A DNA stretch of 32,284 bases from Cryomorphaceae bacterium. GTDB taxonomy: Bacteria > Bacteroidota > Bacteroidia > Flavobacteriales > Schleiferiaceae. The stretch spans positions 1 to 32,284 of the forward strand of contig JAHEKP010000015.1 of the NCBI GenBank assembly GCA_024638285.1. Reading direction: 5' to 3'. Made by a program: the position numbers and the translations under genes. The notes under the pieces were generated by a model. It did no database searches. It saw only the letters and a program-made list of their open reading frames with translations, and was not told the origin of the DNA. Positions within the stretch are counted from its first letter, which is position 1. Every line of letters begins with the position of its first letter. This document shows, one piece after another, positions 5,816-32,251 of the stretch.

Positions 5816-8800
5816 ATGCAAAAACACAGCATGCGAAACAGCTTACTCGTTCTGTTTTCATTTTTGATGTTTACTGCAACAGCACAATACTCTGGTACTG
5901 TGGTGGATGCAGCGGACAACGCACCATTACCTGGTGCAGTAGTGAAGGCAGGAGCGAAATCTGCAGTGACAGATTTTTACGGCCGCTGGTCGTTGGACGT
6001 TGCAAAAGGAACAAAGATCAATGTGTCTTTTATTGGATACGAAAGTAAATCTGTAGTTCTAGGCGATGCCAAAACGATTAAGGTCACTTTACAATATGAT
6101 AAAGCTGCAAGTACGCTTGATGAAGTGGTTGTAGTAGGTTACGGTGTTCAAAAAAAGAGCAACGTCACTGGAGCCATCTCTAGTGTTAAAGCAGAAGACC
6201 TAGAAGATCTTCAACTGCCTCGCCTTGAAACCGCGCTGCAGGGTAGAACTTCTGGTGTTCAGGTGCTCCAGAATTCAGGACAACCGGGTGCTGCATCAGT
6301 TGTACGTATTCGCGGTACATCTTCCATCAACGGATCCAATCCGTTGTACGTTGTAGATGGAGTCGTGATCGGCGGAGGTATTGATTATTTAAACCCGAAC
6401 GATATACAAACCATAGAGGTGTTAAAAGATGCTGCTTCTGCAGCTATTTATGGTGCGCGTGGAGCAAACGGAGTCATTATTGTTACCACTAAAAATGGCT
6501 CTTCTGCGAAAGGTATGGAGGTAAACTTCAGTACCTACACTGGTATTCAGAACTCCTGGAAACAATTGCCGCTGCTCAACGCTACGGAATACGCTACACT
6601 TCAAAATGAAATGGCCGCAGCAGCTGGTCAGTCAATCATTTATGATAATCCTGCGATGTATGGTGAAGGAACCAACTGGCAGCAGCACGTGTTTAACCAG
6701 AACGCTTTGATGCGTAGTACAGATTTTAGCGTTTCTGGTGGATCAGATCGTGGTTCATACTTTTCGTCAATCAGTCATTTCAAGCAGGACGGTATTGTAG
6801 CGGAAGGAAAGTCAAACTTCGAACGTCTATCGGCTCGTCTAAACACCATCACGAAAGCAAACGACCGCTTTACTATAGGATGGAATGTAGCCTACACACA
6901 CAACGAAAGCCAAACGGTTGCGGAGAATACTGAATTTGGTTCGCCTTTAGGTCGCGCGATGAATATTGACCCAATTACTCCTTTATACGAAACGGATCCA
7001 ACCGTTCTCTCTCAAGCGCCTTATACCTCTGGCGGTGTATTGCGTAACAACTTGGTTCGCGATGCTGGCGGTATTTACGGAATATCAAGCCGTGTAACTT
7101 CAGAGGTTTTAAATCCTGTTGCGGCTTACATGATAGAAAACAACTACGGTTGGTCGGATAAAATTGTAAACAACACTTTTGCCGAATTTGAGATTGCTGA
7201 AGGATTGAAAGCACGTACAAGCATGGGGGTTGACCTCGCGTTTTACGGAGGCAACGGATTCCGTCCATCGCATTATTTAAATGCGACCAACTTCCTAGAT
7301 ACGAACATGGTGTACAGCAACTTTAACCGTGCATTCACTTGGATCTGGGATCAAACCATTACCTACACAAAGGACTTGGGCGATCATCATTTTGATGGTC
7401 TTGCTGGCCACAGTGCACAAGAAGTTCAGGGCCGCTACATTGGTGGTAGCAAACGCGATGTGCCTGTGAGCACTTACAATGGCGCGACAATCGATTATGC
7501 ACGTAACGAGGAAAGTGAGCAAGTCTACGGTGGCTATTGGGAACGTTATGCGATTGAATCGTATTTCGCCCGTGCCAACTACGATTACCAAGGTAAATAT
7601 GTAGCTACGGCTATTATTCGCGCAGATGCTTCATCCAACTTTGGTGCGAACTACCGTTGGGGATACTTCCCGTCTGTAAGTGCAGGTTGGAACCTTCACA
7701 AAGAGAATTTTTGGGTATTTGACAATGTAAATACCATGAAATTGAAAGCCGGTTACGGTTTGAACGGTAATGACGCTGCAGGTTCTCTTGAGTATGCCTC
7801 CACTATTGTAGGTGGTCGTTCGTACACCTTTGGTTCAGGCGAAGTGTTAACAAACGGTACTGCACCTGCTCAGGTGGCTAACCCAGATTTGCGTTGGGAA
7901 AGCGTGAGCCAATTCAACGTGGGTGTTGAAATGCGCGCATACGACTGGTTAACGGCAAACATAGATTTTTACAGCCGTACTACTAATGATATGAAAACGC
8001 GTCCACCATTGCCAGATTATATTGGTAATGATGCGCCAACTGCGAACATCGGTTCGATGTCTAACCGCGGTATCGATATCGAATTGGGCTATGAAAAATC
8101 ATTCACTCAAGATTTCAGGTTTGCCGCATCAGCGAACGTCAGTTTCTTGAGAAATGAAGTAGTCCTTTTAGGGAATGAAAGTGGTTATCTACCCGGTCAG
8201 CAGTGGGGTCCACAAGGATTGGAAATCACTCGTATCTCAGAAGGATTGCCCATTGGATACTTCTACGGTTACCAAACCAACGGTATTTTCCAAACGCAAG
8301 ACGAAGTATTCTCCTACACTGGTGGCGAAAACGGCGACACACTTCAACCTGGAGCAGTTGCAGGTGACTTCCGCTTTGTTGATGTAAATGGCGACGGAAA
8401 AATTACTGCGGACGATAGAACGTTCATCGGTAACCCAACGCCAGACATGACCGCAGGTATTAACATTGATATGCAATACAAGAGCTGGGATATCGCAATC
8501 TTCGGTCAAGGAGTTTGGGGCAATCAGATCTACAACGCGACACGTCGTTACGATCTTCCTACAGCAAACATGACTGGCGCTGCGCTAGACAGATGGACAG
8601 GACCAGGTACTTCTAACGATTACCCACGCTTGACGTTCCAGGATAACAATATGAACTTTGCCCGTAGTTCTGATTTCTATGTGGAAGACGGAAGCTTCTT
8701 CCGTATTAAAAATGTTCAGATTGGATACAATTTGAGTCCAGCGGTAGCAGACCGCTTGATGCTTCGTAAAATGCGTATCTACTATGCAGGAACGAATTTG

Positions 8801-8920
8801 TTGACCTTCACTAAATACTCTGGATTTGATCCGGAAATTGGAGCTGGTTTTGGTGTAGACCGTGGTATCTATCCACAAGCGCGTGTACACAGCATTGGAT
8901 TAAACGTCACTTTCAAATAA
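5816..8920 (+). CDS. susC: SusC-type TonB-dependent outer-membrane glycan transporter
   Basis: 1034 residues from ATG 5816. A signal peptide (MQKHSMRNSLLVLFSFLMF, then TATAQ) precedes a carboxypeptidase-regulatory-like domain (YSGTVVDAADNAPLPGA...). Next come a TonB-box-like region and a plug domain with the SusC hallmarks DEVVVVGYGVQKK, RIRGTSSINGSNPLYVVDG and LKDAASAAIYGARGANGVI. A 22-strand barrel follows and ends in the aromatic-rich ...HSIGLNVTFK. It forms the SusCD pedal-bin importer with the next gene, moving oligosaccharides into the periplasm with TonB energy. A longer frame from a GTG at 5777 exists, but that codon lies next to the -7 box and before the expected transcript start, so I reject it. 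It is the first gene of the glucan operon; the gap to susD is 9 bases. Confidence 0.96.
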   Translation: MQKHSMRNSLLVLFSFLMFTATAQYSGTVVDAADNAPLPGAVVKAGAKSAVTDFYGRWSLDVAKGTKINVSFIGYESKSVVLGDAKTIKVTLQYDKAASTLDEVVVVGYGVQKKSNVTGAISSVKAEDLEDLQLPRLETALQGRTSGVQVLQNSGQPGAASVVRIRGTSSINGSNPLYVVDGVVIGGGIDYLNPNDIQTIEVLKDAASAAIYGARGANGVIIVTTKNGSSAKGMEVNFSTYTGIQNSWKQLPLLNATEYATLQNEMAAAAGQSIIYDNPAMYGEGTNWQQHVFNQNALMRSTDFSVSGGSDRGSYFSSISHFKQDGIVAEGKSNFERLSARLNTITKANDRFTIGWNVAYTHNESQTVAENTEFGSPLGRAMNIDPITPLYETDPTVLSQAPYTSGGVLRNNLVRDAGGIYGISSRVTSEVLNPVAAYMIENNYGWSDKIVNNTFAEFEIAEGLKARTSMGVDLAFYGGNGFRPSHYLNATNFLDTNMVYSNFNRAFTWIWDQTITYTKDLGDHHFDGLAGHSAQEVQGRYIGGSKRDVPVSTYNGATIDYARNEESEQVYGGYWERYAIESYFARANYDYQGKYVATAIIRADASSNFGANYRWGYFPSVSAGWNLHKENFWVFDNVNTMKLKAGYGLNGNDAAGSLEYASTIVGGRSYTFGSGEVLTNGTAPAQVANPDLRWESVSQFNVGVEMRAYDWLTANIDFYSRTTNDMKTRPPLPDYIGNDAPTANIGSMSNRGIDIELGYEKSFTQDFRFAASANVSFLRNEVVLLGNESGYLPGQQWGPQGLEITRISEGLPIGYFYGYQTNGIFQTQDEVFSYTGGENGDTLQPGAVAGDFRFVDVNGDGKITADDRTFIGNPTPDMTAGINIDMQYKSWDIAIFGQGVWGNQIYNATRRYDLPTANMTGAALDRWTGPGTSNDYPRLTFQDNNMNFARSSDFYVEDGSFFRIKNVQIGYNLSPAVADRLMLRKMRIYYAGTNLLTFTKYSGFDPEIGAGFGVDRGIYPQARVHSIGLNVTFK

Positions 8921-8929
8921 GCTAGAAAG

Positions 8930-10438
8930 ATGAAAAAGACACTTCATACAACAATCAAATCGTTCGCAATACTTGCACTAGGTGCACTAGTATCTGTCGG
9001 ATGTTCTAAAGATTTCTTAACGACAACGCCCGTAGGACGTGATTTGGAAATCAACTACTACCAAACGGAAGAACAAGCGTTCGAAGCATTGGTGAGCATT
9101 TATGATGTTCTACAGTGGAATGACCAGTACGGTTTTTCGATGCACCGCTTCTTAATGAACGTGGCCTCTGATGACACCTACGCAGGTGGATCTGATGCAT
9201 CTGATCAGCCATCATGGGTAGCAACAGATAACTTTACGTGGACTCCAAATTTGGGTCCTCAAGCCGGCTTCTGGCGCAAGAATTACAAGGGAGTGTACCG
9301 TGCGAATCTTTTCCTCGAGAAGATTGATGGAATTGATGCTGCTTCAGAAGCATTCAAAACGCGCACGAAAGCCGAAGCACACTTCTTACGTGCAAAATTC
9401 TACTTTGATCTCGCACGCAGCTTTGGTTATGTCCCATTGATTCAAAGTACATTGGATCCATCGGAATACTACGCTGTAAGCCAAGTAGGTCCAGATGTTT
9501 TGTATCCTTTCATCATTGCTGAATTGGAAGCGGCCATACCGGATTTACCGGTGAGCGTTCCAGGCATTGAATTGGGTCGCGTGACTAAAGGTGCTGCACA
9601 AGCACTTCTTGCCCGCATTTATTTATTTATGGATGATGATTCCAATATGGACGAGGTAGTTACTTTGTGTCAAGAAGTAATCAACTCCGGTCAGTACAGC
9701 CTTGAGCCAAACTACGAAGACATCTTCAAGAAAACGGGTGAGTGGGGCGTTGAGAGCGTTTTTGAAATCACGTATTCTGAGAACTCTACAAGCGACTGGG
9801 GCCGATTTGGTTCTGGCCACAGTGAAGGTAATGTAGGTGTCCAATTTTGTGGTATGCGCGATTACAACGGTCCTGATTATTCTCCAGGATGGGGCTTTTG
9901 CCCGGTAACGGAGGACTTAGAGTCGTTTATGGACGGGGATCCACGTTATGCCGCGACTATTATTGACGCTGATAACTTGGCAGGAGCAGAGTACAGTGCT
10001 GGATACCAGAATACAGGGTTCTTTATGAAGAAATATGCACCTCTTGCAAGCAACTTCCCACCGGATGGTGAGCCTGCTCTGAACTGGGGAAATAACATTC
10101 GCGAAATCCGTTACGCGGACGTATTGCTCATGGCTGCAGAAGGTTTAGTTCGCAGTGGTGGTTCTGAAGGAACCGCACGCAGCTACGTAAACCAAGTTCG
10201 TGCTCGTGTAAGTATACAAGGTATAGGCTCATCAGGGAGTCAATTGTTAACAGATATCTATAATGAGCGTAGAATGGAATTGGCCACAGAAGGTCACCGT
10301 TACTATGATTTGATTAGAACAGGCAAGGCAGCGACTACTTTGGATAACTGGGACGATACAAAACACATGTATCTACCTATTCCACAAAATGAATTGGACG
10401 CATCGCAAGGTGCATTAACTCAAAACTCAGGTTACTAA
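8930..10438 (+). CDS. susD: SusD/RagB-family surface glycan-binding lipoprotein
   Basis: 502 residues. The lipoprotein signal peptide ends at C25 (SVGC-SKDFLTTTP), and SKD after the cysteine resembles the Bacteroidota surface-export signal. Family features are FLTTTPVG near the start, YQTEEQAFEALVSIYDVLQW, the TPR-like helices with AEAHFLRAKFYFDLARSFG around residue 150, and the C-terminal IREIRYADVLLMAAEGLVR and ERRMELATEGHRYYDLIRTGKA. It caps the SusC barrel and binds the glycan. It starts 9 bases after susC, and the next gene begins immediately after its stop codon, so co-transcription is nearly certain. Confidence 0.96.
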   Translation: MKKTLHTTIKSFAILALGALVSVGCSKDFLTTTPVGRDLEINYYQTEEQAFEALVSIYDVLQWNDQYGFSMHRFLMNVASDDTYAGGSDASDQPSWVATDNFTWTPNLGPQAGFWRKNYKGVYRANLFLEKIDGIDAASEAFKTRTKAEAHFLRAKFYFDLARSFGYVPLIQSTLDPSEYYAVSQVGPDVLYPFIIAELEAAIPDLPVSVPGIELGRVTKGAAQALLARIYLFMDDDSNMDEVVTLCQEVINSGQYSLEPNYEDIFKKTGEWGVESVFEITYSENSTSDWGRFGSGHSEGNVGVQFCGMRDYNGPDYSPGWGFCPVTEDLESFMDGDPRYAATIIDADNLAGAEYSAGYQNTGFFMKKYAPLASNFPPDGEPALNWGNNIREIRYADVLLMAAEGLVRSGGSEGTARSYVNQVRARVSIQGIGSSGSQLLTDIYNERRMELATEGHRYYDLIRTGKAATTLDNWDDTKHMYLPIPQNELDASQGALTQNSGY

Positions 10439-10439
10439 A

Positions 10440-11321
10440 ATGAAAGCATTCAAATTATTCGCCATTCTTGGCTTAGCATTTGCGGCTGTATCGTGTGAAC
10501 CAACGGTACCGGGCAAAACAGAATTAGGTCCATTACCTACGGCTGATTACAGCTTGCAGTTTATAGATTCTAGCACAGTACTCTTAACCAGCGAAAGCTC
10601 TGGCGATCCATTCCTTTACCAATGGGAAGTCGAAGGAGTTGGCGTATTCACTGGCGAATCTGTAGAAGTTTTCATACCTAAAATGGGTGTTTACGATATC
10701 AAACACACGGTAATTAACCAAGGTGGACATGCTACTGCAACAGGCCAAGTTGAAATTCTTATCGACGCTGCATTCGTTTGTGCGGGAACTGCTGAATTTT
10801 TGACCGATTGTACATCCCGTACCTGGAAGCTCGCGCCACAGGCAGGCGCACTTTGGGTAGGACCAGTAGATGCCTCACAAACTTGGTGGGCCATCGGCGC
10901 CACAGGCGCCACAGACCGTCCGTGTGCGTTTGACGACGAATGGACGTTCAACTCTGATTTGGAAATGATCTACGATACCAAAGGCGATATCTGGGCGGAA
11001 GCATTTATGGGTGTTGCTGCAGATGCTTGTCATCCAGAAACCGTACTGACGGGTGCAAAGGCTGCTTGGGCCAGTGGTACACATGGCTTCGAAGTACTAC
11101 CAGGTACAGGTGTAAACGGTGTGGATCAGTTAAAAGTGATCGGTCAAGGTGCGTTCATAGGTTTGCAAAAAGCAACCAATGGGGGCGAAGTAACGAATCC
11201 GGTTGCGGACATTACCTACGACATATTGAGCATGACGGACGACGGTTCTGCCCGCTACATGGAAATTGAGGTTAATTGTAATGGTGCCTTGATTTGGCGC
11301 TTCACACTATATTCAGAATAA
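10440..11321 (+). CDS. Probable surface glycan-binding lipoprotein with PKD-like domain
   Basis: 293 residues. A lipoprotein signal peptide ends at C19 (AAVSC-EPTVPG). Residues about 37-110 look like a PKD/Ig-like fold (FLYQWEVEGVGVFTGESVEVFIPKMGVYDIKHTV...). The C-terminal part (about 115-293) begins CTSRTWKLAPQAGALWVGP and is tryptophan-rich (QTWWAIGA, DEWTFNSD), as expected for a carbohydrate-binding beta-sandwich; it ends IWRFTLYSE. I do not recognise a named family for that half. Its place directly after susD and before the GH16 gene is where SusE/F-type surface glycan-binding proteins sit, so that role is inferred from position and from the PKD plus aromatic-rich layout. Only 1 base separates it from the susD stop codon. 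Confidence 0.85.
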   Translation: MKAFKLFAILGLAFAAVSCEPTVPGKTELGPLPTADYSLQFIDSSTVLLTSESSGDPFLYQWEVEGVGVFTGESVEVFIPKMGVYDIKHTVINQGGHATATGQVEILIDAAFVCAGTAEFLTDCTSRTWKLAPQAGALWVGPVDASQTWWAIGATGATDRPCAFDDEWTFNSDLEMIYDTKGDIWAEAFMGVAADACHPETVLTGAKAAWASGTHGFEVLPGTGVNGVDQLKVIGQGAFIGLQKATNGGEVTNPVADITYDILSMTDDGSARYMEIEVNCNGALIWRFTLYSE

Positions 11322-11345
11322 AGGATTCATATCCCACATATTTCT

Positions 11346-12497
11346 ATGCAGTTGAATAAACTTCTTGTCCCCTTTTCGTTAGCGATTGCGCTCACATCTT
11401 GTGAGACCGCGGAGCTTCCTGTTTTATCAGGAAGTGATGTTGTGGTGGTCGAAGGTGATGAAGCGAATACTTACAGCTACCAGGTAAGCTTAAACGAGCC
11501 GGCCTCAAAAGAAGTTACCTTCAACTACAGTACGGTAGAAGTTAGTGCGCTCGCTGGTGAGGACTTTACCCAGGTAAGTGGAACTGCGACTATCCCTAAA
11601 GGTGAAAGTAGGGCCAACATTCCAATTCCTCTTTTAGGGGATACAGAATTTGAGCAAGATGAGACGCTTTGGATCAGTTATTCAAATGGAACCAACGTAA
11701 GCATTCCTAATCCTTTCAATGTCATTACCATTGAGAATGATGATAGCTACAGCGGTCAGTCCGATTCTGGTTACACTACGCCGCTTTCGTATCCTGGTGT
11801 TTCCTTAGTTTGGAACGATGAATTCGACGGAACTTCATTGAATATGAACGATTGGAATTACGAAACTGGAGCTTCCGGTTGGGGTAATGAAGAAAGTCAA
11901 TATTACCGTTCAGGAACCAACAATGCAACCGTAGAGAACGGTGTGCTTATCATCGCAGCTAAAGAGGAAACCTTTGGGGGTGCACCATTTACTTCGGCGC
12001 GCATTACGACCCAGGGGAAACAGAGCTTTAAGTATGGACGCATTGATATTCGAGCGCGTCTGCCTTATGGTCAGGGTTTGTGGCCTGCGCTATGGATGCT
12101 TGGCGACAACATCTCTTCAGTCGGTTGGCCTTCGTGTGGTGAGATAGACATCATGGAGCTGATCGGCGGTGACGGTTACAACGACAGAACGGTTCACGGA
12201 ACGGCGCATTGGAATGCCGGTGGGCAAGCCAGCTATGGTGCCGCCAAAAGCTTGCCTGACGGTAAGTATGCAGATGAATTTCACGTCTTTAGCTTGATCT
12301 GGAATCAAGGCTCCATGAAGTGGTACGTGGATGATGTTCTTTACAACACTTTAAATATTGGTTCGCTTTCTGCGTTCCATGAAAAATTCTTCTTCATTTT
12401 TAACATCGCCGTTGAAGGAGATTGGCCTGGGCCAGTGGGACAGAATACTGTGTTCCCACAATATATGGCGGTGGACTACATACGTGTATTTCAATAA
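11346..12497 (+). CDS. GH16 endo-beta-1,3-glucanase (laminarinase-like) with N-terminal Calx-beta domain
   Basis: 383 residues. It is a lipoprotein (lipobox ending at C19). A Calx-beta-like domain spans about residues 28-132 (VVVVEGDEANTYSY ... LAGEDFTQVSGTATIPKGES ... DETLWISYSNG ... ITIENDD). A Ser/Thr/Gly linker leads into a GH16 catalytic domain from about 150 to 383. The catalytic motif is GEIDIMELIG with nucleophile E266, D268 and acid/base E271. Substrate-cleft motifs include WNDEFDG, NATVENGVLIIAA, YGRIDIRARLPYGQGLWPALWMLG and the C-terminal MAVDYIRVFQ. The EIDIME motif and overall pattern fit the laminarinase/lichenase group of GH16, so the locus probably targets algal laminarin; exact linkage preference is inferred. 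It is probably tethered to the outer membrane. It follows the upstream gene by 24 bases. Confidence 0.92.
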   Translation: MQLNKLLVPFSLAIALTSCETAELPVLSGSDVVVVEGDEANTYSYQVSLNEPASKEVTFNYSTVEVSALAGEDFTQVSGTATIPKGESRANIPIPLLGDTEFEQDETLWISYSNGTNVSIPNPFNVITIENDDSYSGQSDSGYTTPLSYPGVSLVWNDEFDGTSLNMNDWNYETGASGWGNEESQYYRSGTNNATVENGVLIIAAKEETFGGAPFTSARITTQGKQSFKYGRIDIRARLPYGQGLWPALWMLGDNISSVGWPSCGEIDIMELIGGDGYNDRTVHGTAHWNAGGQASYGAAKSLPDGKYADEFHVFSLIWNQGSMKWYVDDVLYNTLNIGSLSAFHEKFFFIFNIAVEGDWPGPVGQNTVFPQYMAVDYIRVFQ

Positions 12498-12522
12498 TTA
12501 CTAACCATAAATAATGCTTAAC

Positions 12523-13860
12523 ATGAAAAAAATCTACGCTTTATTAATGCTTGCCCTTCCTATGTTGGGTTTTGCACAAAAGGATGTCACGTTTATCGTT
12601 GACATGCGCGACTATTCAGGGTCGTACACTACTGTACACTTGAATGGTGACTTTAACAGCTGGTGTGGTACCTGTAACCCAATGTCTGATCCTGAAGGTG
12701 ATTCAATTTGGACGGTTACTCTTCCGTTAACTGCTGATTCTATCGAGTACAAATTCACACTTGATGGATGGACTGGTCAAGAAAGTTTGACTTCTGGTAC
12801 GGCTTGTACTAAAACTACAGGTGCTTACACGAACCGTTTCGCTGCATTCACTGCGGATACAATCCTTCCAGGGGTTGCATGGGAATCGTGTGGTGCAAAA
12901 TCGGGCGAAGTATACATGACATTCCAGGTAAACATGTCTTACAGAGCCGTTGATTCAACGGGTGTATTCTTAGCTGGTGGTTCTGGCTTCGGAGTACCTG
13001 GAGATAACGAGATGTATCCTATCGGCGATAGCGTTTACTCTAAGACACTTGCTGCAGCTTCAGGTTTCTACAGCATGTTTACGTTCTTGAGCGCTAACGA
13101 TCCTTCTTGGGGAGCTAAAGAGAACATCGTAGGTAAGCCATGTGCTGCGGGTACATACAGTGACCGTGATATGGTAGGTTACTCTTCAACTATGGGTTTG
13201 ATGGGAGACTTCCACTACCGCACATGTTTCGGTGAGTGTACTACTGACGGTACTTGTCCTGTTCCTGCAACGCCTGTGAACGTTACGTTCCAGTCTGATC
13301 GTTCGAACAGCCCTGCGTTTACAACTGCTTACATCTCAGGTACAATGAACGGATGGAGTGGTGATGCAAACCAAATGACTGATGCTGATGGCGACGGTGT
13401 ATATGAAGTAACACTTTCACTATTACCAGGTTCTTACGAGTTCAAATTCACTGCAGACAGCTGGGCAATTCAAGAGAACTTCGACCCAACAACTGCAGAT
13501 TCTGTTTGTACGTTGACTACTGGTGCATTCACTAACCGTCTAGTTACTATTGCTCAGGCGGATACTACTCTTGACATCCAATGTTGGGAAGAGTGTGGTC
13601 CATGTGCGGGTATCGGTATTGAAGAAGCAGCAACTGACTTCGTAGTGAAGCCAAATCCAGCTTCTGATGTGTTGTTCATCGAAAACACCACAGGTACAAC
13701 TTCTAACGTCGCTATCTATAGCGTAACTGGTGCGAAAGTACTGGAGCAGCGTTTTGAGACTGAAGCACGTTTAGACGTTGCATCTTTGCCACGTGGCATG
13801 TACATCGTACGCGTTCAAAATGGTTTGAGCGAAAGCGTTGTACGCATTGCACTTAAATAA
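12523..13860 (+). CDS. Secreted three-module carbohydrate-binding-like protein with T9SS sorting domain
   Basis: 445 residues from ATG 12523 (an ATG three codons earlier is also possible). A signal peptide (MKKIYALLMLALPMLGFAQ) precedes three beta-sandwich modules. Modules 1 (about residues 20-120) and 3 (about 245-350) resemble each other: NGDFNSW / SGTMNGW, then MSDPEGDSIW / MTDADGDGVYEV, then EYKFTLDGW / EFKFTADSW, then TTGAYTNR / TTGAFTNR. They recall CBM48/CBM20-like or glycogen-binding E-set folds. Module 2 (about 130-240, FQVNMSYRAVDSTGVFLAGG...) is more divergent. Cysteine pairs (WCGTC, CWEECGPC) suggest disulfides. The last 80 residues (VVKPNPASDVLFIENTTG ... PRGMYIVRVQ ... VRIALK) are a type A T9SS C-terminal sorting domain, so it is exported by type IX secretion. 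No catalytic site is visible. The role is inferred to be binding glucan outside the cell. A strong terminator follows. Confidence 0.88.
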   Translation: MKKIYALLMLALPMLGFAQKDVTFIVDMRDYSGSYTTVHLNGDFNSWCGTCNPMSDPEGDSIWTVTLPLTADSIEYKFTLDGWTGQESLTSGTACTKTTGAYTNRFAAFTADTILPGVAWESCGAKSGEVYMTFQVNMSYRAVDSTGVFLAGGSGFGVPGDNEMYPIGDSVYSKTLAAASGFYSMFTFLSANDPSWGAKENIVGKPCAAGTYSDRDMVGYSSTMGLMGDFHYRTCFGECTTDGTCPVPATPVNVTFQSDRSNSPAFTTAYISGTMNGWSGDANQMTDADGDGVYEVTLSLLPGSYEFKFTADSWAIQENFDPTTADSVCTLTTGAFTNRLVTIAQADTTLDIQCWEECGPCAGIGIEEAATDFVVKPNPASDVLFIENTTGTTSNVAIYSVTGAKVLEQRFETEARLDVASLPRGMYIVRVQNGLSESVVRIALK

Positions 13861-18896: not shown

Positions 18897-19640
18897 TTAA
18901 GCCGCCTCTGTCTTTGACTCGATTGCCAAAGAATAGATCACAAGACCAAATCCAATTTTGTTGATTGCATCAGCAAGGTTGTAGCACAAGTTGAGTACTT
19001 CCTCGTTTGCTTCGATACCAAGATCCATACCGAAGAAACCTCCAGCAGTACCTAGGATGTAACCGATAGGGTAGATACCCCAACCGATGATTACGAATTT
19101 AGCCAAAGCACTGTTTGCTTTTGCTACTGCACCACCAGCGTTGTTTGCCAATTTAGCAACGTCTCCTTTCCATACCATCCATACGATGTAGAAGTAAGCA
19201 GCACCAGAAATAGCACCCCAAACCCAAGAAACAGCATCATTTGCGTAAAATGCCTCACCGATGTACCCGGTAACTAACATCGCAACTGAAGCTAGGATCA
19301 GTTTGTACAAAATTGATTTTGTACCTCCAGCTTTCTTAGTGATCAAGTAGAACTCAACACACATAAGTGGAACAGTTAAGGTCCAGTCTACATAACGTAG
19401 AACAACTGGACTTCCATTACCGGCAGCGTAAAAATCACGCATGTAGTAGTAGTGCACTGCTGCAATACCAGTAATAAGCCCACTAACGAGCATTGAAGTT
19501 TTCCACTCGTCTGCAACTCTACTTCTTTCGAAGAAGAAGAATACCGAAGCGGCCAACATCGCCATGTAACCGGCGAAGAATGTGAACGATACGTAATCGT
19601 TCGGATCGAATCCCATAGATCCGTCTAAAAATAATGACAT
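18897..19640 (-). CDS. Proteorhodopsin, green-absorbing type, light-driven proton pump
   Basis: 247 residues, seven membrane helices. Helix C reads RYVDWTLTVPLMCVEFYLI: proton acceptor D85, T89 and proton donor E96, the DTE set of outward proton pumps. The residue equal to GPR position 105 is M93, typical of green-tuned flavobacterial proteorhodopsins. H63 (in AVHYYYMRDF) matches the GPR His75 partner of the acceptor. Helix G reads NLADAINKIGFG with the retinal Schiff-base lysine K228 and counter-ion D224. It pumps protons across the inner membrane on light absorption. The E-F loop is long and alanine/asparagine-rich. The gene is divergent from the crtY-blh fusion that would supply its retinal, with 207 bases between the two start codons, and has its own strong terminator, so it is probably monocistronic. 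Confidence 0.97.
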   Translation of the reverse strand: MSLFLDGSMGFDPNDYVSFTFFAGYMAMLAASVFFFFERSRVADEWKTSMLVSGLITGIAAVHYYYMRDFYAAGNGSPVVLRYVDWTLTVPLMCVEFYLITKKAGGTKSILYKLILASVAMLVTGYIGEAFYANDAVSWVWGAISGAAYFYIVWMVWKGDVAKLANNAGGAVAKANSALAKFVIIGWGIYPIGYILGTAGGFFGMDLGIEANEEVLNLCYNLADAINKIGFGLVIYSLAIESKTEAA

Positions 19641-19847
19641 GGTGTTAAAAATTAAAGGTTATAACTACCACTTAACTTACGAATAATACTTTTGTTCACG
19701 ACATGTTAAAATTGAGTTTAAAAACTCATAATAATGCCTATATCGCTCTAAAAAAGCCATTTATACATCTATTTAGCGGTAAGTATAGAACAAAGTAGCC
19801 ACGGAATTGTTGCAAATAATATAAAGGGTCTAATCGACATTTAATCA
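19641..19847. promoter_or_regulatory. Divergent control region between proteorhodopsin and crtY-blh
   Basis: AT-rich intergenic region of 207 bases. It holds an inverted repeat TGAGTTT-AA-AAACTCA at 19713-19728, a candidate shared operator. On the plus strand TACTTTTG at 19687-19694 matches the -7 consensus fully, which would give crtY-blh a leader of about 150 bases; no good TTG lies upstream of it. On the minus strand I found only a near match (TACTTTG, complement of 19790-19796). Promoter calls here are therefore tentative. Confidence 0.4.
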
Positions 19848-21827
19848 ATGAAGCGTTTCGACATAGGTTTTTTGGGAATGGGTGCTGCCAACGGGTTGAT
19901 TTTGCTCGAATTGGAGCGCCGGAATGTATTGCATCAACTCAAAATACTCATTCTTGAACCTGATGCGAAGCTGAAAAATGATAAGACCTATTGTTTTTGG
20001 GCAGATTCCAAACATGAAATCCGTACTCAACTAGAAGATGTACTGTACCACCAGTGGGATACACTTGATACCATGGACGGCCTAGAGGCGCTAGATGATC
20101 AACATTATTATATGGTTGAAAGTAGTGCGCTATATAATAAGGTTAAGTCGGTTACCCAATCGTACGAAAACATCCTTTGGATTAGAGCTGCAGTAGATGG
20201 CCTGAGGACAGAACAAGAAGGCGTCGTACTTTCAGCCGGAGACCATTCATGGGAAGTTCAACAGGTATTTGATAGCAGGCCCCCAAACATTAAAGAACCC
20301 ATAGGGCCGCTGGTCTTGCAAAGTTTTGTGGGTTGGCGCGTCCAATTAAATCAAGACTACTGGACTCCGAACGAGATGAGGTTGATGGATTTTAGCATTC
20401 CTCAAAACGGTTTTACTCAATTCATGTACGTCCTACCAACGGGATCCAAAGAGGCATTGGTTGAAATGACCCGTTTCGGGAGTGAGCCCTTGCCGCATGA
20501 ATTGGCCAGTAATCATCTTAGAAATTACCTCCTATCCAGAGGTTTGTCCTTTGATATTCAACACGAGGAACGCGGTGTGATACCCATGACGCAATATGCA
20601 GAGGTCAAAGATCAGGATGCACGTATTGTCTCTACAGGTGCTCGTGCAGGAATGATTAAAGCCACTACGGGGTACGCCTTTAAGAATATGTTTGTGCATG
20701 CAAAGGAATTGGCAGAAGGCATTATCCAGGAGCGACAGGATTCATCGTGGTTGCGCTTGCCTAAAAGCACTATGAATCGATTCAATTTTTATGATCATTT
20801 ATTGCTGCACATTTTAAAGCACAAACCACACTGGGGTAAAGAAATATTTGAGTCCTTATTCGCGACCCAGAAAGCAAACAAAGTTTTTCAGTTTTTAGAT
20901 GAAAAATCTTCCTTTAAATGGGAGTTGAGCATGTTTGCACGTTTGCCTATTATGAAATTTTTATGGGCCTTGGCAGCCTCTTTTGTAGCAATTGTGGTGG
21001 CAAAGCCCGCTCGATGGGCACCGGTCGTGTTTACTATTTTAGCGCTATTTGCCAATTCTTTTTTGCCCTCTGCCGTGACATTCGGACTGCAAGCCGTGCT
21101 CGTTTTCCTGTTGTTTCTATATGGGATCCCCCATGGAGCCTTAGATGGTTACAGTCACGCGAACCAGGACCGATTGCCAAAATTCATATTACGCTACTGC
21201 TTCATCATGCTGATGGTCATTTTATTTTGGGCCGCCAGTCCCATCATAGGATTGCTGGCTTTTTTAATTTACAGTGCATGGCATTTTGGAGAGACTGACC
21301 TGCGTGAATGGGGCTTTCCTAGTATTGGTCTTTCCTTTTTATGGGGAACCCTGTTATTGACGATGATTTTATTACCGCATCTCACGGAAGTGAATACCGT
21401 GTTCGAAGTGATGGGGGTAGCAACTGTGAATTGGCCCACGGCGTTCGTAAATATGGTCTTTCGAATTGCCCTATCGCTAGGCCTTTTTATGGGCGTTTGG
21501 TTTCGCTCAATCCCCTGGGTCGTTGCCGTAGTGACGCTCAGTTTGACAGCTACTTTACCTTTAGCTACGGCGTTCGGGATCTATTTTGTTTTGCAACATA
21601 GTCTTTCGGGTTGGAACCATCTGAAGTTGTCGCATAAATGGACAAATACGGAAATGTGGATGAAGGCTTTGCCGTTTACAATCGGGGCCGTGGTGTTGTT
21701 TCTATTGATCTTTAGATTCGATAAAAACTCCTTGTTGGCTTGGTCGAGCTATTTTCTAGTATTCCTCAGCGCCATCAGCTTACCGCACATTTACTTCATG
21801 TCTAAACTCTACAAAGACCGATTCTAA
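19848..21827 (+). CDS. crtY-blh: Fusion of lycopene beta-cyclase (CrtY) and Blh-type beta-carotene 15,15'-dioxygenase
   Basis: 659 residues in one open frame. Residues 1 to about 375 are a CrtY-type cyclase: dinucleotide-binding start FLGMGAANG (8-16), LEPD (36-39), KTYCFWAD (46-53), FVGWRVQ (160-166), VEMTRFGSE (205-213) and RGVIPM (242-247). Residues about 385-655 are a polytopic Brp/Blh domain: GIPHGALDG with H429, SAWHFGETD with H479, LQHSLSGWNHLKL with H584 and H591, and SLPHIYFMS with H647. The first half turns lycopene into beta-carotene; the second cleaves it to two retinals, the chromophore of the adjacent proteorhodopsin. Each domain is near full length (separate Blh proteins are about 270-300 residues), so this is a fusion and not an overlap. 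Histidine spacing in the third Blh motif (+7) differs from the HxxxH I recall for the 66A03 Blh. It converges on the phosphoesterase gene; the two stop codons overlap by 4 bases. Confidence 0.93.
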   Translation: MKRFDIGFLGMGAANGLILLELERRNVLHQLKILILEPDAKLKNDKTYCFWADSKHEIRTQLEDVLYHQWDTLDTMDGLEALDDQHYYMVESSALYNKVKSVTQSYENILWIRAAVDGLRTEQEGVVLSAGDHSWEVQQVFDSRPPNIKEPIGPLVLQSFVGWRVQLNQDYWTPNEMRLMDFSIPQNGFTQFMYVLPTGSKEALVEMTRFGSEPLPHELASNHLRNYLLSRGLSFDIQHEERGVIPMTQYAEVKDQDARIVSTGARAGMIKATTGYAFKNMFVHAKELAEGIIQERQDSSWLRLPKSTMNRFNFYDHLLLHILKHKPHWGKEIFESLFATQKANKVFQFLDEKSSFKWELSMFARLPIMKFLWALAASFVAIVVAKPARWAPVVFTILALFANSFLPSAVTFGLQAVLVFLLFLYGIPHGALDGYSHANQDRLPKFILRYCFIMLMVILFWAASPIIGLLAFLIYSAWHFGETDLREWGFPSIGLSFLWGTLLLTMILLPHLTEVNTVFEVMGVATVNWPTAFVNMVFRIALSLGLFMGVWFRSIPWVVAVVTLSLTATLPLATAFGIYFVLQHSLSGWNHLKLSHKWTNTEMWMKALPFTIGAVVLFLLIFRFDKNSLLAWSSYFLVFLSAISLPHIYFMSKLYKDRF

Positions 21828-26035: not shown

Positions 26036-26057
26036 ATTGTAAGTGAACACTTACAAT
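26036..26057. promoter_or_regulatory. Perfect palindromic operator overlapping the tetR start codon
   Basis: ATTGTAAGTG-AA-CACTTACAAT: ten-base arms, all paired, two-base spacer. The right arm runs into the ATG of tetR (26056). TATTATTG at 26032-26039, a one-mismatch -7 box, overlaps its left end. This is the expected size and placement for TetR autorepression. Confidence 0.75.
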
Positions 26058-26583
26058 GACTGAAAAACAACAGGCCATACTTCAAAGCGCTCAGACGCTT
26101 ATTGCTGCACATGGATTTTATGCCATGTCTACAGCAAAGATTGCCGCACACGCCGGTGTGAGTGAAGCGCTAATTTTTCGTCATTTTAAATCAAAAACTG
26201 GACTGGCTGAGGCCTTGAAGTCGGCGGGTGAACGCGCTCGCGCTTCATTGATTTACGGTCGTTTAAATGATGCAGATCCTGCGGAGGTGTTGCGCTCTTT
26301 CACTTCCATCCAGCTTGATAGCTTTACAGATTTTAGGGAGGTCCTGGCCTGGGTGGCAATGATCCGCATGACACAGGAAAATCCAGAAAGTCGAACGCTA
26401 GACACTTTTGTGCTGGAGCGTTTGCGCTGGGCCATCTCCTGTGTCGGTCACGGAGCAGAAGAAGCAGTAGCTCGCACAGCTATTGAGATCGTGGAACGGT
26501 CATTGCTATTAGCATTTCGTGAAGACGAAGAAAGTGCTTCAGAGCTTTTGCGTGGATTGAGTGAATTGCTTATTAATGAGTGA
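26056..26583 (+). CDS. TetR-family transcriptional repressor of the efflux operon
   Basis: 175 residues. The N-terminal HTH is clear (AAHGFYAMSTAKIAAHAGVSEALIFRHFKSKTGLAEAL, about residues 16-52), followed by an all-helical ligand/dimer domain with little family-specific sequence. TetR proteins bind palindromes as dimers and let go when a small molecule binds. Two palindromes flank the gene: a perfect one over its own start and an imperfect one over its stop codon that also covers the -33 zone of the efflux promoter. This points to autoregulation plus control of the RND operon. The inducer is unknown. Confidence 0.92.
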   Translation: MTEKQQAILQSAQTLIAAHGFYAMSTAKIAAHAGVSEALIFRHFKSKTGLAEALKSAGERARASLIYGRLNDADPAEVLRSFTSIQLDSFTDFREVLAWVAMIRMTQENPESRTLDTFVLERLRWAISCVGHGAEEAVARTAIEIVERSLLLAFREDEESASELLRGLSELLINE

Positions 26584-26617
26584 GTACTTACTTAATTAGA
26601 CGAGAATAATACATTTG
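26577..26617 (+). promoter_or_regulatory. Efflux operon promoter with TetR-like operator
   Basis: TGAGTGAGT-ACTTACTTA at 26577-26594 is an inverted repeat with 7 of 9 pairs matching and no spacer; it contains the GTnAGT/ACTTA elements of the operator at 26036-26057. TACATTTG at 26610-26617 is a full -7 match. The operator covers the expected -33 position, so a bound repressor would block the polymerase. The transcript would start near 26624, about 22 bases before the adaptor ATG. Confidence 0.55.
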
Positions 26618-26645
26618 GAACGAATTATACATAACCTAAATACAC

Positions 26646-27761
26646 ATGAACAGTAAACTCATTAGAAACATTGTCGTCGCTGTGGCGATACTAGCAGTAG
26701 GAATTTTCGTCAAAGGCAAGCTCAGTGCTATGGCGACGAAAGAGGAAATACGGGATGAGAAGATTAAGCCGCGTATAAAAGTGATTGAAGTCGCGAACGA
26801 TACTGTGGCGCTTCCAATAACCATCTATGGGAAGTTGAACGCAGTGGAGCGAGTAGATTTATTGGCGGAGGTCAGTGGCACCTTTTTGGGTGGTGATGCG
26901 CCTTTTTTAGAAGGAGTGGCTTTTAGAAAGGGTCAGGTCCTAATGCAATTGGATCATGCGGAAGCGGAAGCGAACGTTATGAGTTTGAAGGGCAATTTTA
27001 TCAATAGTGTATTGGCCATATTACCTGATCTAAATGCAGATTACCCAGAGTCGTACCAAGCATGGGAGACGTATTATGATGCATTGAGTTTGTCGATTCC
27101 TTTACCCGATCTACCAATGGTACAATCTAAGCTCGAGAAATTCTTAATTGCACGAGGTATTCAAAGTGCGTATTATCAGGTGAAAAGTGCGGAAGAACGT
27201 TTAGAAAAATACAGTATTCGTGCTCCTTTTGACGGTAAGGTAGCGCAGGCGTTGGTGAAGAAAGGAAACCTAGTGAGTCCAGGAAGAGCGTTGGGAACCT
27301 TCGTAGGAACGGGGGGATATGAGCTGAAGGGCGCGGTAACGTTGGCCTATTCTGAACAATTAAAATTGGGCCAAGCCATCGCTTTCACAAGCCCAGATCG
27401 TAAAGGCAGCTGGAAGGGTCAGATAGACCGTATCAGTCCAATTGTTGATGGTGCAAGTCAAAGCATCAATCTAATAGCTGCCCTAAATGGAAAGGACCTT
27501 AAAGAAGGCATGTACCTCACTGGAACAATCGCTAATGTTGAAGTGTACGATGCACTTCGTGTGCCTGCGTATATGGTGTTTGATAACGAATACGTCTACA
27601 CCGTTGAATCCGATTCCATACTTGCAAAAACAGCGATAGAAGTAGTGGAATGGTTTGATGAAAACATTGTCATTAAAGGGTTGAAAAACGGCCAGTGGTT
27701 GGTGGATGCGCCAACTTTAAAGGCCGCCTCAGGAACGCTCGTTGAAGTGGTAAAAAACTAA
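26646..27761 (+). CDS. RND efflux periplasmic adaptor (membrane fusion protein)
   Basis: 371 residues. An N-terminal membrane anchor (IRNIVVAVAILAVGIFVKG, residues 6-24) without a lipobox is followed by a split lipoyl/barrel-sandwich domain (LLAEVSGTFLGGDAPFLEGVAFRKGQVLMQLD ... YSIRAPFDGKVAQALVKKGNLVSPG). An alpha-hairpin lies between the two halves, then beta-barrel (LKEGMYLTGTIANVEV) and membrane-proximal domains. It bridges the RND pump to the outer-membrane channel. It is the first gene of the efflux operon; the pump starts 13 bases after its stop. Confidence 0.93.
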   Translation: MNSKLIRNIVVAVAILAVGIFVKGKLSAMATKEEIRDEKIKPRIKVIEVANDTVALPITIYGKLNAVERVDLLAEVSGTFLGGDAPFLEGVAFRKGQVLMQLDHAEAEANVMSLKGNFINSVLAILPDLNADYPESYQAWETYYDALSLSIPLPDLPMVQSKLEKFLIARGIQSAYYQVKSAEERLEKYSIRAPFDGKVAQALVKKGNLVSPGRALGTFVGTGGYELKGAVTLAYSEQLKLGQAIAFTSPDRKGSWKGQIDRISPIVDGASQSINLIAALNGKDLKEGMYLTGTIANVEVYDALRVPAYMVFDNEYVYTVESDSILAKTAIEVVEWFDENIVIKGLKNGQWLVDAPTLKAASGTLVEVVKN

Positions 27762-27774
27762 CTAAAAGCCAACG

Positions 27775-30700
27775 ATGAAACGACTTATAGAATTCTTTAT
27801 AAAATACCCAGTTGGGGTCGATACCCTTTTGATAGGTACTTTCTTCTTCGGTTGGATCAGCTACAATGCACTGAACACCACGTTCTTTCCTTTAGTTGAA
27901 TCTAGGAACATTACCGTTACAGCTATTTACCCCGGTGCTTCACCAGAAGAAATGGAAGAGGGCGTGGTGAATAAAATTGAGCAAAATCTAAAAGGTCTCA
28001 CGGGCGTAGAACAATATACTTCCACCTCATCTGAGAACAGTGCGGTGATCAACGTAGAGGTTATTAAAGGATACGATACTGACCTCGTTTTAGAGGATGT
28101 CAAAAATGCAGTAGAAAGTGTTCCATCATTTCCGACCGGTATGGAACCTATTCGCGTTGCGAAAAGAGAAAACTTAACACTCGCGATGAGCATGGCCTTA
28201 AGTGGCGAGGGTGTGGATCTGATCAGTTTGAAACAGGAAGCGCGACGCATTGAGCGCGAGCTGCGTTTAGTGGACGGTATTTCAAAAATCTCATTAGGTG
28301 GTTTCCCCGATGAAGAAATAGAAATTGCCTTAGATAAGAGTACGCTGCGCAAGTACAACTTGTCTTTGACCCAGATTGCGACAGCATTGCGTACAACAAA
28401 CTTGGATATCACAGGCGGTACCATTAAAGGCACCCAGGAGGAAATGCTTATTCGTTCGCGTAACAAACAATACGACGCCGAAGCCCTTCAGAACATCGTA
28501 GTCTACACGCGTCCAAGCGGAGAAACGCTACGATTGAAAGATGTAGGCACCGTTAGGAACCGCTGGGCTGATGCGCCAACTCGCGCGCAGTTCAATGGCA
28601 TTCCTTCCGTGGAGCTCATTGTGAACAATACGGATGAAGAAGATCTGTTACAAACGTGTACATTTTTACGTGGGTATGTGACCGATTACAATTTGACCAA
28701 CAGCAATATGCAGATCGATGTGATCCGCGATTTTTCGGTAACGCTTGACCAACGTAAAGATCTGTTGCTAGAAAACGGTTTGTTGGGATTCTTCCTGGTG
28801 CTGCTGCTATTGACTTTATTTCTGAATTGGCGCCTAGCTTTTTGGGTGGCCATAGGAATACCGGTTTCATTTGCAGGGATGTTCATTCTAGCCACGCAAT
28901 TTGGCATTACCATTAATGTGATTTCACTCTTTGGAATGATCGTGGTAATCGGGATTTTGGTGGATGACGGGATTGTAATTGCGGAGAATATATATGCACA
29001 TTTTGAAAAAGGAAAGCCGCTCATGCGTGCAGCCCTAGAAGGTACGTTGGAAGTTATTCCATCCGTTGTAAGTGCTGTGTTAACGACAATAATTGCCTTT
29101 TCTTCCTTTTTTTTCTTAGCAGGTCGACCAGGGGATTTCTTCTCTGAAATGGCATTTATCGTTGTTGCTACCTTGGCTGTATCGCTGGTAGAAGGGTTAC
29201 TCTTCTTACCCACCCACTTGAGTCACGCAAAGCTGCAGCGAAATGAAAAAATGAATCCGGTGCAGCGCATGGCCACCGGAGCCTTGTTTAAGGTTAGAGA
29301 CCGCTATTATGCACCGTTTTTGAAATGGTCGCTCAACAATAAATTAGTCACCATTGCATTCTTTTTCGCAATTATGCTGGTGACTTTTGGTGCGATTGGC
29401 GGCGGCATCATAAGGACCCAATTTTTCCCTTTCATTGAACGGGATAACTTAGATATCAGCCTTGACATGCCGGCTGGGACGAACGATGAGGTGACCTTGA
29501 AATGGATCAATCATATTGAAGAGGCTGTTTGGCGCGTGAATGAGCAATACAAGGCGGAGCGCGAAGACGGATTAGATGTGGTGGTTGCTGTACAGAAAAA
29601 CATAGGCCCGCTCACGTCTAAAGCCCGATTAAACGTGAACCTATTGGATTCAGAAACGCGCTTGACGCCTTCCTTCCTTATTCAAAATGATATTCGAAAG
29701 GCTACCGGTGAAATTCCTAGTGCGGATAATTTGAGCTTCGGTGGCGCGCAAGCCTTCGGAAAGCCGATCTCTATTTCTTTAGTGTCTTACGATCTGGAGG
29801 AATTGAAAGGGGCGAAGGAGATTTTAAAAGCAAAGCTGAAAAGCATGGATGCCTTGACGGACGTTATAGATAACGATCAGAAGGGGATTCGCGAGGTGAC
29901 GCTAGAGTTGACGGATAAAGCTCGGTATCTTGGTTTGACTCCGGGAAGTATAATGACCCAGGTACGTGAATCTTTCTTTGGTGCGCAGGTGCAACGCTTG
30001 CAACGCGGCGAAGACGAGGTGAAGGTATGGGTGCGTTTAGCGGAAGAGGACCGCAAGAAGTTGTGGGACTTAGAGGAATTACTCATCACTACAGGGCAAG
30101 GAAGTGTACCGTTAAGAGAATTGGCCACCTACACAATTGAACGTGGAACAGTGAACATTAATCACTTGGACGGGCAACGTGAATTCCGGGTGGAGAGCGA
30201 TCTAACCAGTCCGAACGGTTCTGCACCGGCACTTTTAGCACAAATCCAAAGTGATATTTTACCGGAAATTTTCGCGCATTATCCATCCGTCGATGCTCGA
30301 TACGAAGGACAACAAAAAGAGAGTCAAAAGACGCAGGACAGTTCAAAAACGGTCATGCCGTTAATTCTGTTTCTCATCATTTTGACCATCACCTTTACGT
30401 TCAGATCACTGGTGCAGACCATCGTTATCATGCTTTTAATACCGCTAAGTATGACCGGTGTGGCCTGGGGACACTGGCTGCATGGCATGCCGATGTCTAT
30501 TTTAAGTTTCTTAGGCGTGGTGGCGTTGATTGGTATTATTGTGAACGATTCTTTGGTGCTGGTCAGTAAATACAATTTAAATGTGAAGAGTGGCGAACCC
30601 GTGTATGAGGCCATTTATAACGCTGGATTGAGCAGATTCCGTGCAATTTTCTTGACTACGGTTACCACCATTGCTGGGCTCGCACCGTTGATTTTTGAAA

Positions 30701-30945
30701 CCTCCTTCCAAGCCCAATTCCTTATTCCAATGGCGGTTTCTATTGCGTACGGTATAGGGTTTGCGACGCTGTTAACACTGGTGGTTTTGCCATCGCTTAT
30801 GGCATTGGTCAATGATTCCCGTGTGAATTTGAGACATTTCTGGACGGGCGAGCGGCCGACGCGCGAGTCGGTGGAGCCGGCCATTAAGGAGATGGCGAGT
30901 GAATCCTACTTTAACGAATTGAAAAATACTGAAGACCATGAATAA
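27775..30945 (+). CDS. RND-family efflux pump (HAE1/AcrB-like inner-membrane permease)
   Basis: 1056 residues, standard RND size, with two repeats of one helix, a large periplasmic loop and a five- or six-helix bundle. Typical signatures are FPLVESRNITVTAIYPGASPEEMEEGVVNKIE near the start, the TM4 proton-relay pair in ILVDDGIVIAEN, and the second-half IIVNDSLVLVSKYN and LTTVTTIAGLAPLIFETS. The conserved DD points to proton-driven export. The class looks like hydrophobe/amphiphile export and not CusA-type metal export, but I cannot name the substrate. Its last codons overlap the start of the outer-membrane factor by 8 bases, so translation is probably coupled. Confidence 0.96.
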   Translation: MKRLIEFFIKYPVGVDTLLIGTFFFGWISYNALNTTFFPLVESRNITVTAIYPGASPEEMEEGVVNKIEQNLKGLTGVEQYTSTSSENSAVINVEVIKGYDTDLVLEDVKNAVESVPSFPTGMEPIRVAKRENLTLAMSMALSGEGVDLISLKQEARRIERELRLVDGISKISLGGFPDEEIEIALDKSTLRKYNLSLTQIATALRTTNLDITGGTIKGTQEEMLIRSRNKQYDAEALQNIVVYTRPSGETLRLKDVGTVRNRWADAPTRAQFNGIPSVELIVNNTDEEDLLQTCTFLRGYVTDYNLTNSNMQIDVIRDFSVTLDQRKDLLLENGLLGFFLVLLLLTLFLNWRLAFWVAIGIPVSFAGMFILATQFGITINVISLFGMIVVIGILVDDGIVIAENIYAHFEKGKPLMRAALEGTLEVIPSVVSAVLTTIIAFSSFFFLAGRPGDFFSEMAFIVVATLAVSLVEGLLFLPTHLSHAKLQRNEKMNPVQRMATGALFKVRDRYYAPFLKWSLNNKLVTIAFFFAIMLVTFGAIGGGIIRTQFFPFIERDNLDISLDMPAGTNDEVTLKWINHIEEAVWRVNEQYKAEREDGLDVVVAVQKNIGPLTSKARLNVNLLDSETRLTPSFLIQNDIRKATGEIPSADNLSFGGAQAFGKPISISLVSYDLEELKGAKEILKAKLKSMDALTDVIDNDQKGIREVTLELTDKARYLGLTPGSIMTQVRESFFGAQVQRLQRGEDEVKVWVRLAEEDRKKLWDLEELLITTGQGSVPLRELATYTIERGTVNINHLDGQREFRVESDLTSPNGSAPALLAQIQSDILPEIFAHYPSVDARYEGQQKESQKTQDSSKTVMPLILFLIILTITFTFRSLVQTIVIMLLIPLSMTGVAWGHWLHGMPMSILSFLGVVALIGIIVNDSLVLVSKYNLNVKSGEPVYEAIYNAGLSRFRAIFLTTVTTIAGLAPLIFETSFQAQFLIPMAVSIAYGIGFATLLTLVVLPSLMALVNDSRVNLRHFWTGERPTRESVEPAIKEMASESYFNELKNTEDHE

Positions 30946-32251
30946 AGTCCTAACCTTTTTGTTGTTCTGTGGAGGATTCTTCAGTGCCGTTGCACAGGAA
31001 TCTAAGCCGACTTTGCTGTCGCTTGATGCTGCTGTTGTGGCCGCGTTGGAATACAATCACGATTTGTATATAGTGGCTTTGCAACGTGAACAGGCGGAGA
31101 ATAGTGCGACGTTGGGTAATGCGGGGGCATTGCCTGCATTGCGCGCTACTGCCGGGGTAAACTACAGCAATCAAAATTCTGATCTTGAATTTGCGACGGG
31201 CCAGAGCCAAATAGTAGAAGGTGCACAAAGTGCTGCCCAAAACGCCTCATTGGCCTTAAGTCAGGTTCTTTTTTCAGGCGGTGCCTTACAGCGTACTTAT
31301 GGAGTCCTGAAAAAGGCGGCCTCAATGGCCGGTGTGCAGGAGCTTCAGCAAATGAATGCTACGGTTGCTCAAGCGCACAGTCAATACTACGCTATTGCAT
31401 TGCTACAGGAGACGGTAGGCACTGCTGAGATGAACATAACGATCAGTGTAGATCGCTATGAGCGGGCGAAGTTGACCCATTCATTGGGCGGTTCCAACAC
31501 TACAGAGCTGTTGGCTGCGGAGGTCGCGTTGAATAGAGATGAAGTCACTTTAATGGACGCACGAACACAGTTGGCCAATGCGAAGAATACGTTTCGTTCG
31601 TTTGCCGGCCTTTCGGCAGATTTTGAAGTGACGGATAAGGTAAGCGATGACTTTGCTATGCCGATGGCTTTGGAAGCAATGGTAGCAGCAGCATTGGAAA
31701 ATAATCCTGGTTTGCAATTGGTTCGTATGGGTGAAGAAACTGCGCAATTGCAATACCAGCTTTCGCAGAGTACGCTCTTTCCTACGGTTAGTGCTCAAAT
31801 GAGTTACGGACTCAACCAGAGCCAGGCAGAAGCTGGGTTTTTAAGTGCCTCACAACAAACGGGGTTGAATGCCGGGATCACCCTTTCTTATGATCTTTTT
31901 GGGGGTGGTCGCAGCAGAACGCAGCGACAGAATGCTGCATTGGATATAGCGATTGCATCGCGTCGCAGGTTGCAGGCGGAGGAGACGATCGCTACTTCCG
32001 TACACAATGCAGCAGAGGTATTTATTAATGCCCAAGCGAAGTACGCATTAGAGCAAAAAAATGTCCTTGTAGCCCAACTAAACTTTGAGAAGACGAAAGA
32101 GCGCTACCACAAAGGTCAGCTTAGTTTTCTTGAGTTCCGGGAGGCACAATTAGGATTGTTGAATGCTGAGAATGGTAAAACAGCGGCCCTATTCCAAGCG
32201 CGGAACGCACATATTGCGCTTTGGCAATTGGTTCAAGCGTTCGACTTGTAG
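30938..32251 (+). CDS. TolC-type outer-membrane efflux channel
   Basis: 437 residues with a signal peptide (MNKVLTFLLFCGGFFSAVAQ). The duplicated TolC fold is visible: SLDAAVVAALEYNHDLYIVALQ at the start of the first repeat and EAMVAAALENNPGLQLVRMG in the second, with beta-strand pieces such as SAQMSYGLNQSQ and the C-terminal KGQLSFLEFREAQLGLLNAENGKTAAL. It forms the trimeric exit duct for the RND pump encoded just upstream. It is the last gene of the operon; a terminator lies 9 bases after its stop. Confidence 0.95.
   Translation: MNKVLTFLLFCGGFFSAVAQESKPTLLSLDAAVVAALEYNHDLYIVALQREQAENSATLGNAGALPALRATAGVNYSNQNSDLEFATGQSQIVEGAQSAAQNASLALSQVLFSGGALQRTYGVLKKAASMAGVQELQQMNATVAQAHSQYYAIALLQETVGTAEMNITISVDRYERAKLTHSLGGSNTTELLAAEVALNRDEVTLMDARTQLANAKNTFRSFAGLSADFEVTDKVSDDFAMPMALEAMVAAALENNPGLQLVRMGEETAQLQYQLSQSTLFPTVSAQMSYGLNQSQAEAGFLSASQQTGLNAGITLSYDLFGGGRSRTQRQNAALDIAIASRRRLQAEETIATSVHNAAEVFINAQAKYALEQKNVLVAQLNFEKTKERYHKGQLSFLEFREAQLGLLNAENGKTAALFQARNAHIALWQLVQAFDL

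Follow-up and report, generated by a model that had tools for sequence, protein, structure and literature searches.

A single-frame crtY–blh gene beside a proteorhodopsin gene in an uncultured marine member of the Bacteroidota: architecture, origin and a possible private route to retinal

The fused gene, its opsin neighbour and the surrounding DNA

The stretch of DNA analyzed here (the window, 32,284 nucleotides) comes from an uncultured marine member of the Bacteroidota and carries on its forward strand, at positions 19848–21827 (stop codon included), a single open reading frame of 659 amino acids running from an ATG to a stop. The original prediction that this one frame encodes both a complete CrtY-like and a complete Blh-like domain was confirmed by the open reading frame itself and by Pfam and NCBIfam searches. 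The Pfam family PF05834 (Lycopene_cycl) matches residues 5–370 with an E value of 1.4e-44 (153 bits, cut-off 23.4; profile positions 1–374 of 380), PF15461 (BCD) matches residues 421–655 (E 1.1e-23, 84.6 bits, cut-off 28) and the NCBIfam model TIGR03753 (Brp/Blh) matches residues 417–651 with 112.2 bits, above its cut-off of 95.25. The CrtY half, a predicted FAD-type lycopene beta-cyclase, comprises residues 1–376 (19848–20975) and the Blh half, a predicted beta-carotene 15,15'-dioxygenase, residues 377–659 (20976–21824, both on the forward strand), and the two are joined with almost no linker. With the NCBIfam models for CrtY and for carotene cyclases the CrtY half scores 119.4 and 73.1 bits, below both cut-offs (209.5 and 215.2); we class it as a predicted PF05834 cyclase and not as a member of the NCBIfam CrtY equivalog.

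The CrtY half contains a dinucleotide motif with G10 and G12, the sequence NDKTYCFW at residues 44–51 and E206 within an L-x-E-x-T motif, and G10, G12 and E206 are invariant in the aligned fusions. By analogy with the plant FLEET motif and the motif of Pantoea CrtY, E206 (codon 20463–20465, forward strand) is presumably the catalytic glutamate; it is found in 57 of 57 fused and 28 of 28 split CrtY sequences. Four histidines of the Blh half, which we take to be the ligands of a non-haem iron, are each present in 57 of 57 fused and 31 of 31 split sequences: H429 in a GIPHGA motif (codon 21132–21134), H479 in SAWHFGE (21282–21284), H584 in QHS (21597–21599) and H647 in S-x-PH (21786–21788), all on the forward strand. 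When 67 fusions were aligned, the residues expected for both activities were invariant, including E206 and these four histidines.

An AlphaFold2 model of the fusion (mean pLDDT 86.5, pTM 0.73) places a helix at residues 368–385 that leads almost straight into the Blh helices 387–405 and 407–431, and the Blh half is modelled as an all-helical membrane domain (helices 387–405 to 629–658). Residues 1–379 of the model match the fold of an FAD geranylgeranyl reductase, 3oz2 (Z 23.4, rmsd 4.2, 349 residues aligned); in the structure comparison with Foldseek the matching rows span approximately residues 1–383, i.e., the CrtY half. A search by sequence found no solved homologue.

As had been predicted, the gene adjoins an opsin gene. 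This gene lies at 18897–19640 on the reverse strand, divergent from the fusion, and encodes 247 amino acids (PF01036, E 7e-43). The opsin has D85, T89 and E96 (proteorhodopsin positions 97, 101 and 108), M93 (position 105), the Schiff-base lysine K228 and Gly142, and its nearest solved structures are those of proteorhodopsin, 9jov and 9jou, with 9jov the best match. Judged by its D-T-E motif and Schiff-base lysine, the neighbour is predicted to be a proton-pump proteorhodopsin. The D-T-E pump positions, the methionine at position 105 and a glycine at the fenestration-aligned position recur in 69 of 69 opsins from fused loci and in 20 of 20 from split loci. Counting along the proteorhodopsin numbering, we provisionally take Gly142 to be the carotenoid fenestration position of xanthorhodopsins. 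The fenestration glycine is Gly153 in Kin4B8 and Gly156 in SrXR, and the residue in Kin4B8 gives access to hydroxylated xanthophylls, zeaxanthin among them (PMC13093654). If the alignment of Gly142 is right, one opsin could depend on a hydroxylated carotenoid as well as on retinal.

An opsin is present in 38 of 39 fused genomes and lies near the fusion gene in most loci. In the window the two genes share an upstream region of 207 bp (19641–19847) in which an alignment of five relatives shows two conserved blocks, one hugging each gene, and a variable middle part. A gene for an M61-type peptidase lies beyond the opsin, and the fusion shares its last four bases with a metallophosphoesterase gene that converges on it. 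Elsewhere in the window, a SusC/SusD-like pair, a GH16 enzyme and a CBM48/T9SS protein (5777–13860) form a beta-glucan utilisation locus of the laminarin type, and a TetR regulator, an HlyD-type adaptor and an AcrB-type RND pump followed by a further open reading frame (26056–32251) form an efflux operon.

Integrity, spread and origin of the fusion

The genome of the window is a draft of 85 contigs, and one might ask whether assembly or annotation has joined two genes. All 24 other genomes of the same genus that were searched carry the gene at 49–90% identity, the copies in G005 and G006 being cut by contig ends. The original prediction had named a stop or frameshift between the halves as contrary evidence; none of these copies has an internal stop, and when the window was compared with six of its close relatives, all equal to it in length, the median pN/pS was 0.15 at the junction (residues 363–425), with 0.10 in both the CrtY and the Blh part. 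Replacements at the junction are thus far fewer than synonymous changes, and purifying selection extends over the whole length of the gene (dN/dS about 0.05). Dozens of independent assemblies moreover show the same continuous frame without a stop, some of them on contigs of more than 1 Mb (L049, L076). We therefore reject an artefact, which on the strength of the intact frames in the genus and in other assemblies and of the selection on the junction has practically no chance of being the explanation.

A scan of genome contigs with the window protein left 80 loci, all of them full-length fusions with frames of about 650–720 amino acids, labelled as Schleiferiaceae, Cryomorphaceae, Crocinitomicaceae, Chitinophagaceae, Saprospiraceae and others. 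Two loci labelled as belonging to other phyla (L056 and L085) are probably mis-named bins; L085 falls among the Bacteroidota in the CrtY and Blh trees. In a sample of 396 genomes of the class Bacteroidia 78 have Blh, and in 36 of these 78 it is fused. Most of the genomes analyzed are drafts. This linkage count omits five fragmentary genomes of one family (f64), among them G326, in which a CrtY–Blh sequence (L234, G326:C30, about 3400–5800) has a frame break near the end of CrtY that is due to either an assembly error or a mutation; and one genome counted as unlinked, G208, is a truncated Blh hit to be set aside, which lowers the unlinked class from 27 to 26. The statement that most proteorhodopsin bacteria have two separate genes hence understated the frequency of the fusion, and the rarity it implied is wrong: the scan, the sample and both trees reveal an old architecture of single origin in many Bacteroidota. 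On plasmids no fused copy was found, the best matches covering 56–58% of the query and the CrtY half only, nor was there one in phages or in viral contigs as far as the pattern-limited search of the latter reached.

The two trees were built in quick mode, with SH-aLRT values as their only measure of support. A branch with support 98 separates all 57 fused sequences from the rest of the CrtY tree, and their sister group consists of the split CrtY proteins of G032 and G030, which belong to the family of the window's genome. In the Blh tree the fused sequences form one set with a single nested unfused member, L134. Since both half-trees show one fused group, the sequences point to a single fusion event in a tandem crtY–blh pair, an arrangement that persists in the same family. 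Overlapping frames of crtY and blh, plausibly the parent state, occur in L027 and L029. The unfused member L134 (genome G268) is a Blh-only gene inside the fused clade which lies beside an amylase-like gene and has no CrtY in front, apparently after loss of the cyclase half; such a derivative suggests that Blh can cleave beta-carotene without being physically joined to CrtY.

A second cyclase and the genes of the pigment pathway

On a contig other than that of the fusion, the genome of the window contains crtZ (L232:2290–2757) directly followed by crtYcd (PF18916, L232:2764–3471) and, 3 kb beyond crtYcd, a CruF-type gene (PF04240, C24:31062). Two earlier assumptions about this genome had to be rejected. 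The fused CrtY is not the sole cyclase, PF05834 having missed the unrelated CrtYcd that PF18916 found; nor is crtZ absent, as it was found with a CrtZ query, while the profile PF04116 gave only a weak hit to a protein that is TMEM189/CarF-like by eye.

In the Bacteroidia sample 35 of the 36 fused genomes have a second, unfused cyclase, which is CrtYcd in 30 and a second FAD CrtY in five; none has both, and one has neither (G378, 92% complete). A second cyclase is likewise present in all nine tandem crtY–blh genomes of the sample; G032, a tandem genome outside the sample, shows none. The 27 genomes with unlinked blh (including G208 with its truncated hit) each have exactly one cyclase. Within the fused genomes the second cyclase lies less than 200 bp from crtZ in 25 of 35 cases, and crtZ itself is present in 77 of 77 Blh genomes checked. 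Fisher's test for the two-cyclase contrast gives 6e-19, a value that overstates the case because a linked crtY counts by definition; the Blh tree provides no more than three to six independent contrasts, which are neutral or agree in direction and are never opposite, too few for significance. Nearly every genome nevertheless keeps a cyclase elsewhere, to which the blh-linked CrtY is an addition, and this observation is solid.

What the pigment genes make can be narrowed to some degree. PF04240 is found in 70 of 80 genomes, and the desaturase of the window's genome matches CrtID above the cut-off, 3,4-desaturase included. The single-chain CrtYcd of Algoriphagus, also a member of the Bacteroidota, is reported as a monocyclase (PMC2889829). 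The pigment may thus be monocyclic, of the saproxanthin or myxol type, and if so a separate bicyclase would be needed for retinal. PF04240 also occurs in most one-cyclase genomes, however, and alone cannot explain the two-cyclase contrast.

Other carotenoid genes of this genome are found in L181 (G000:C67:36000-54640), where a crtI–crtB–idi cluster (9361–13194) is flanked by an ECF sigma factor and a MerR regulator with a B12-binding domain, the regulator's best named model being CarH, below its cut-off. Genes that by eye resemble queD, folE and a photolyase gene follow the cluster, and the region looks like a light-controlled regulon. Near crtZ–crtYcd–cruF there is in addition a 182-amino-acid TMEM189/CarF-like protein (by eye; L182:5228–5776, G000:C24). 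In myxobacteria, CarF-type proteins are connected with the light-induced synthesis of carotenoids.

A possible private route from lycopene to retinal

We regard it as probable that the fusion is a private lycopene-to-retinal enzyme, the pigment being made by a separate set of genes, and that it arose once from a crtY–blh pair. The N-terminal half of this bifunctional, membrane-bound protein would close both beta rings of lycopene, the C-terminal half would cleave the resulting beta-carotene centrally into two molecules of retinal, and the retinal would serve the adjacent proteorhodopsin. Other carotenoids would be supplied by genes with a cyclase of their own, here crtZ–crtYcd and the cruF-type gene. 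An adjacent or overlapping crtY–blh pair that was already dedicated to retinal would have become one frame a single time, and the gain from joining may have been a fixed 1:1 ratio and a local hand-over within the membrane. We propose separate branches for retinal and pigment since a second, unfused cyclase is retained in nearly all fused genomes; this cyclase, usually beside crtZ, lends indirect support to the predicted commitment of lycopene to retinal instead of pigment. Counterpoints are G378 (fused) and G032 (tandem), which show no second cyclase, the Blh-only derivative in G268, and the scores of the CrtY half below the NCBIfam cut-offs. The original prediction went further in letting the single chain pass beta-carotene directly from cyclase to dioxygenase. 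That it does so, with a retinal-private and a xanthophyll branch running in parallel from lycopene, is a proposal which we hold only tentatively and somewhat doubt. If it is true, the parallel branches use two unrelated or paralogous cyclases, and the xanthophyll of the pigment branch could also be an antenna of the same opsin.

The second cyclase can be read differently. Possibly it is kept as CrtYcd not for channelling but because it is a monocyclase that leads through gamma-carotene to monocyclic pigments, in which case the fused CrtY would provide all the beta-carotene. The reported activity of the Algoriphagus enzyme (PMC2889829) speaks for this, as do the PF04240 gene and the CrtID-type desaturase, which such pigments need; yet PF04240 is also found in most genomes with one cyclase, and five fused genomes have an FAD CrtY as their second cyclase in place of CrtYcd. 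We rate this reading a serious possibility that falls somewhat short of even chances; it is compatible with the private branch and may be the cause of it. The fusion could also do nothing but fix a 1:1 ratio and joint expression, beta-carotene being shared with crtZ through the membrane. The presence of crtZ in every Blh genome checked would suit such an arrangement, zeaxanthin from shared beta-carotene would be useful to an opsin with the presumed fenestration glycine, and genomes with unlinked blh obtain both products from a single cyclase. A common pool would make the unlinked cyclase dispensable, however, and its retention in 35 of 36 genomes, usually beside crtZ, renders this rather unlikely. 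That one half has degenerated, CrtY for example being a mere anchor while CrtYcd supplies Blh with beta-carotene, could be argued from the existence of the second cyclase and from the CrtY half falling below the NCBIfam CrtY cut-offs; with the cyclase motif residues invariant and a dN/dS near 0.05 we consider it very improbable.

The private-route enzyme that we favour has the same two families, the same order of reactions and the same link to an opsin as the separate crtY and blh genes of proteorhodopsin bacteria. These are adjacent or overlapping in several Bacteroidota, whereas the fusion is one polypeptide in one clade. The original prediction cited no biochemical description of such a protein, and we likewise found no description of a bacterial CrtY–Blh fusion in the open-access papers searched. 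The nearest described relative is a four-enzyme protist protein, CrtI-CrtB-CrtYc/d-Blh of Thecamonas trahens (PMC10016063), which also has a cyclase and a C-terminal Blh on one chain, but this protein is eukaryotic, includes CrtI and CrtB and uses the unrelated membrane cyclase CrtYc/d in place of the FAD-type CrtY found here. Thraustochytrid CrtIBY (PMC10016063) and fungal synthase–cyclase fusions (PMC2889829) are single-chain carotenoid enzymes too; unlike CrtY–Blh they end at beta-carotene and lack Blh. The CrtYcd of Algoriphagus (cited in PMC2889829) is a lycopene cyclase like the CrtY half, and the second cyclase of the window's genome is of its kind, but it belongs to a different family (PF18916) and is not fused to Blh.

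A widespread fusion, found along with an additional cyclase and with its split precursor form in the same family, makes it possible to ask by expression and knockout how rhodopsin bacteria apportion lycopene to retinal and to antenna or protective pigment, and the fusion would offer a one-gene tool for retinal formation in lycopene-producing hosts.
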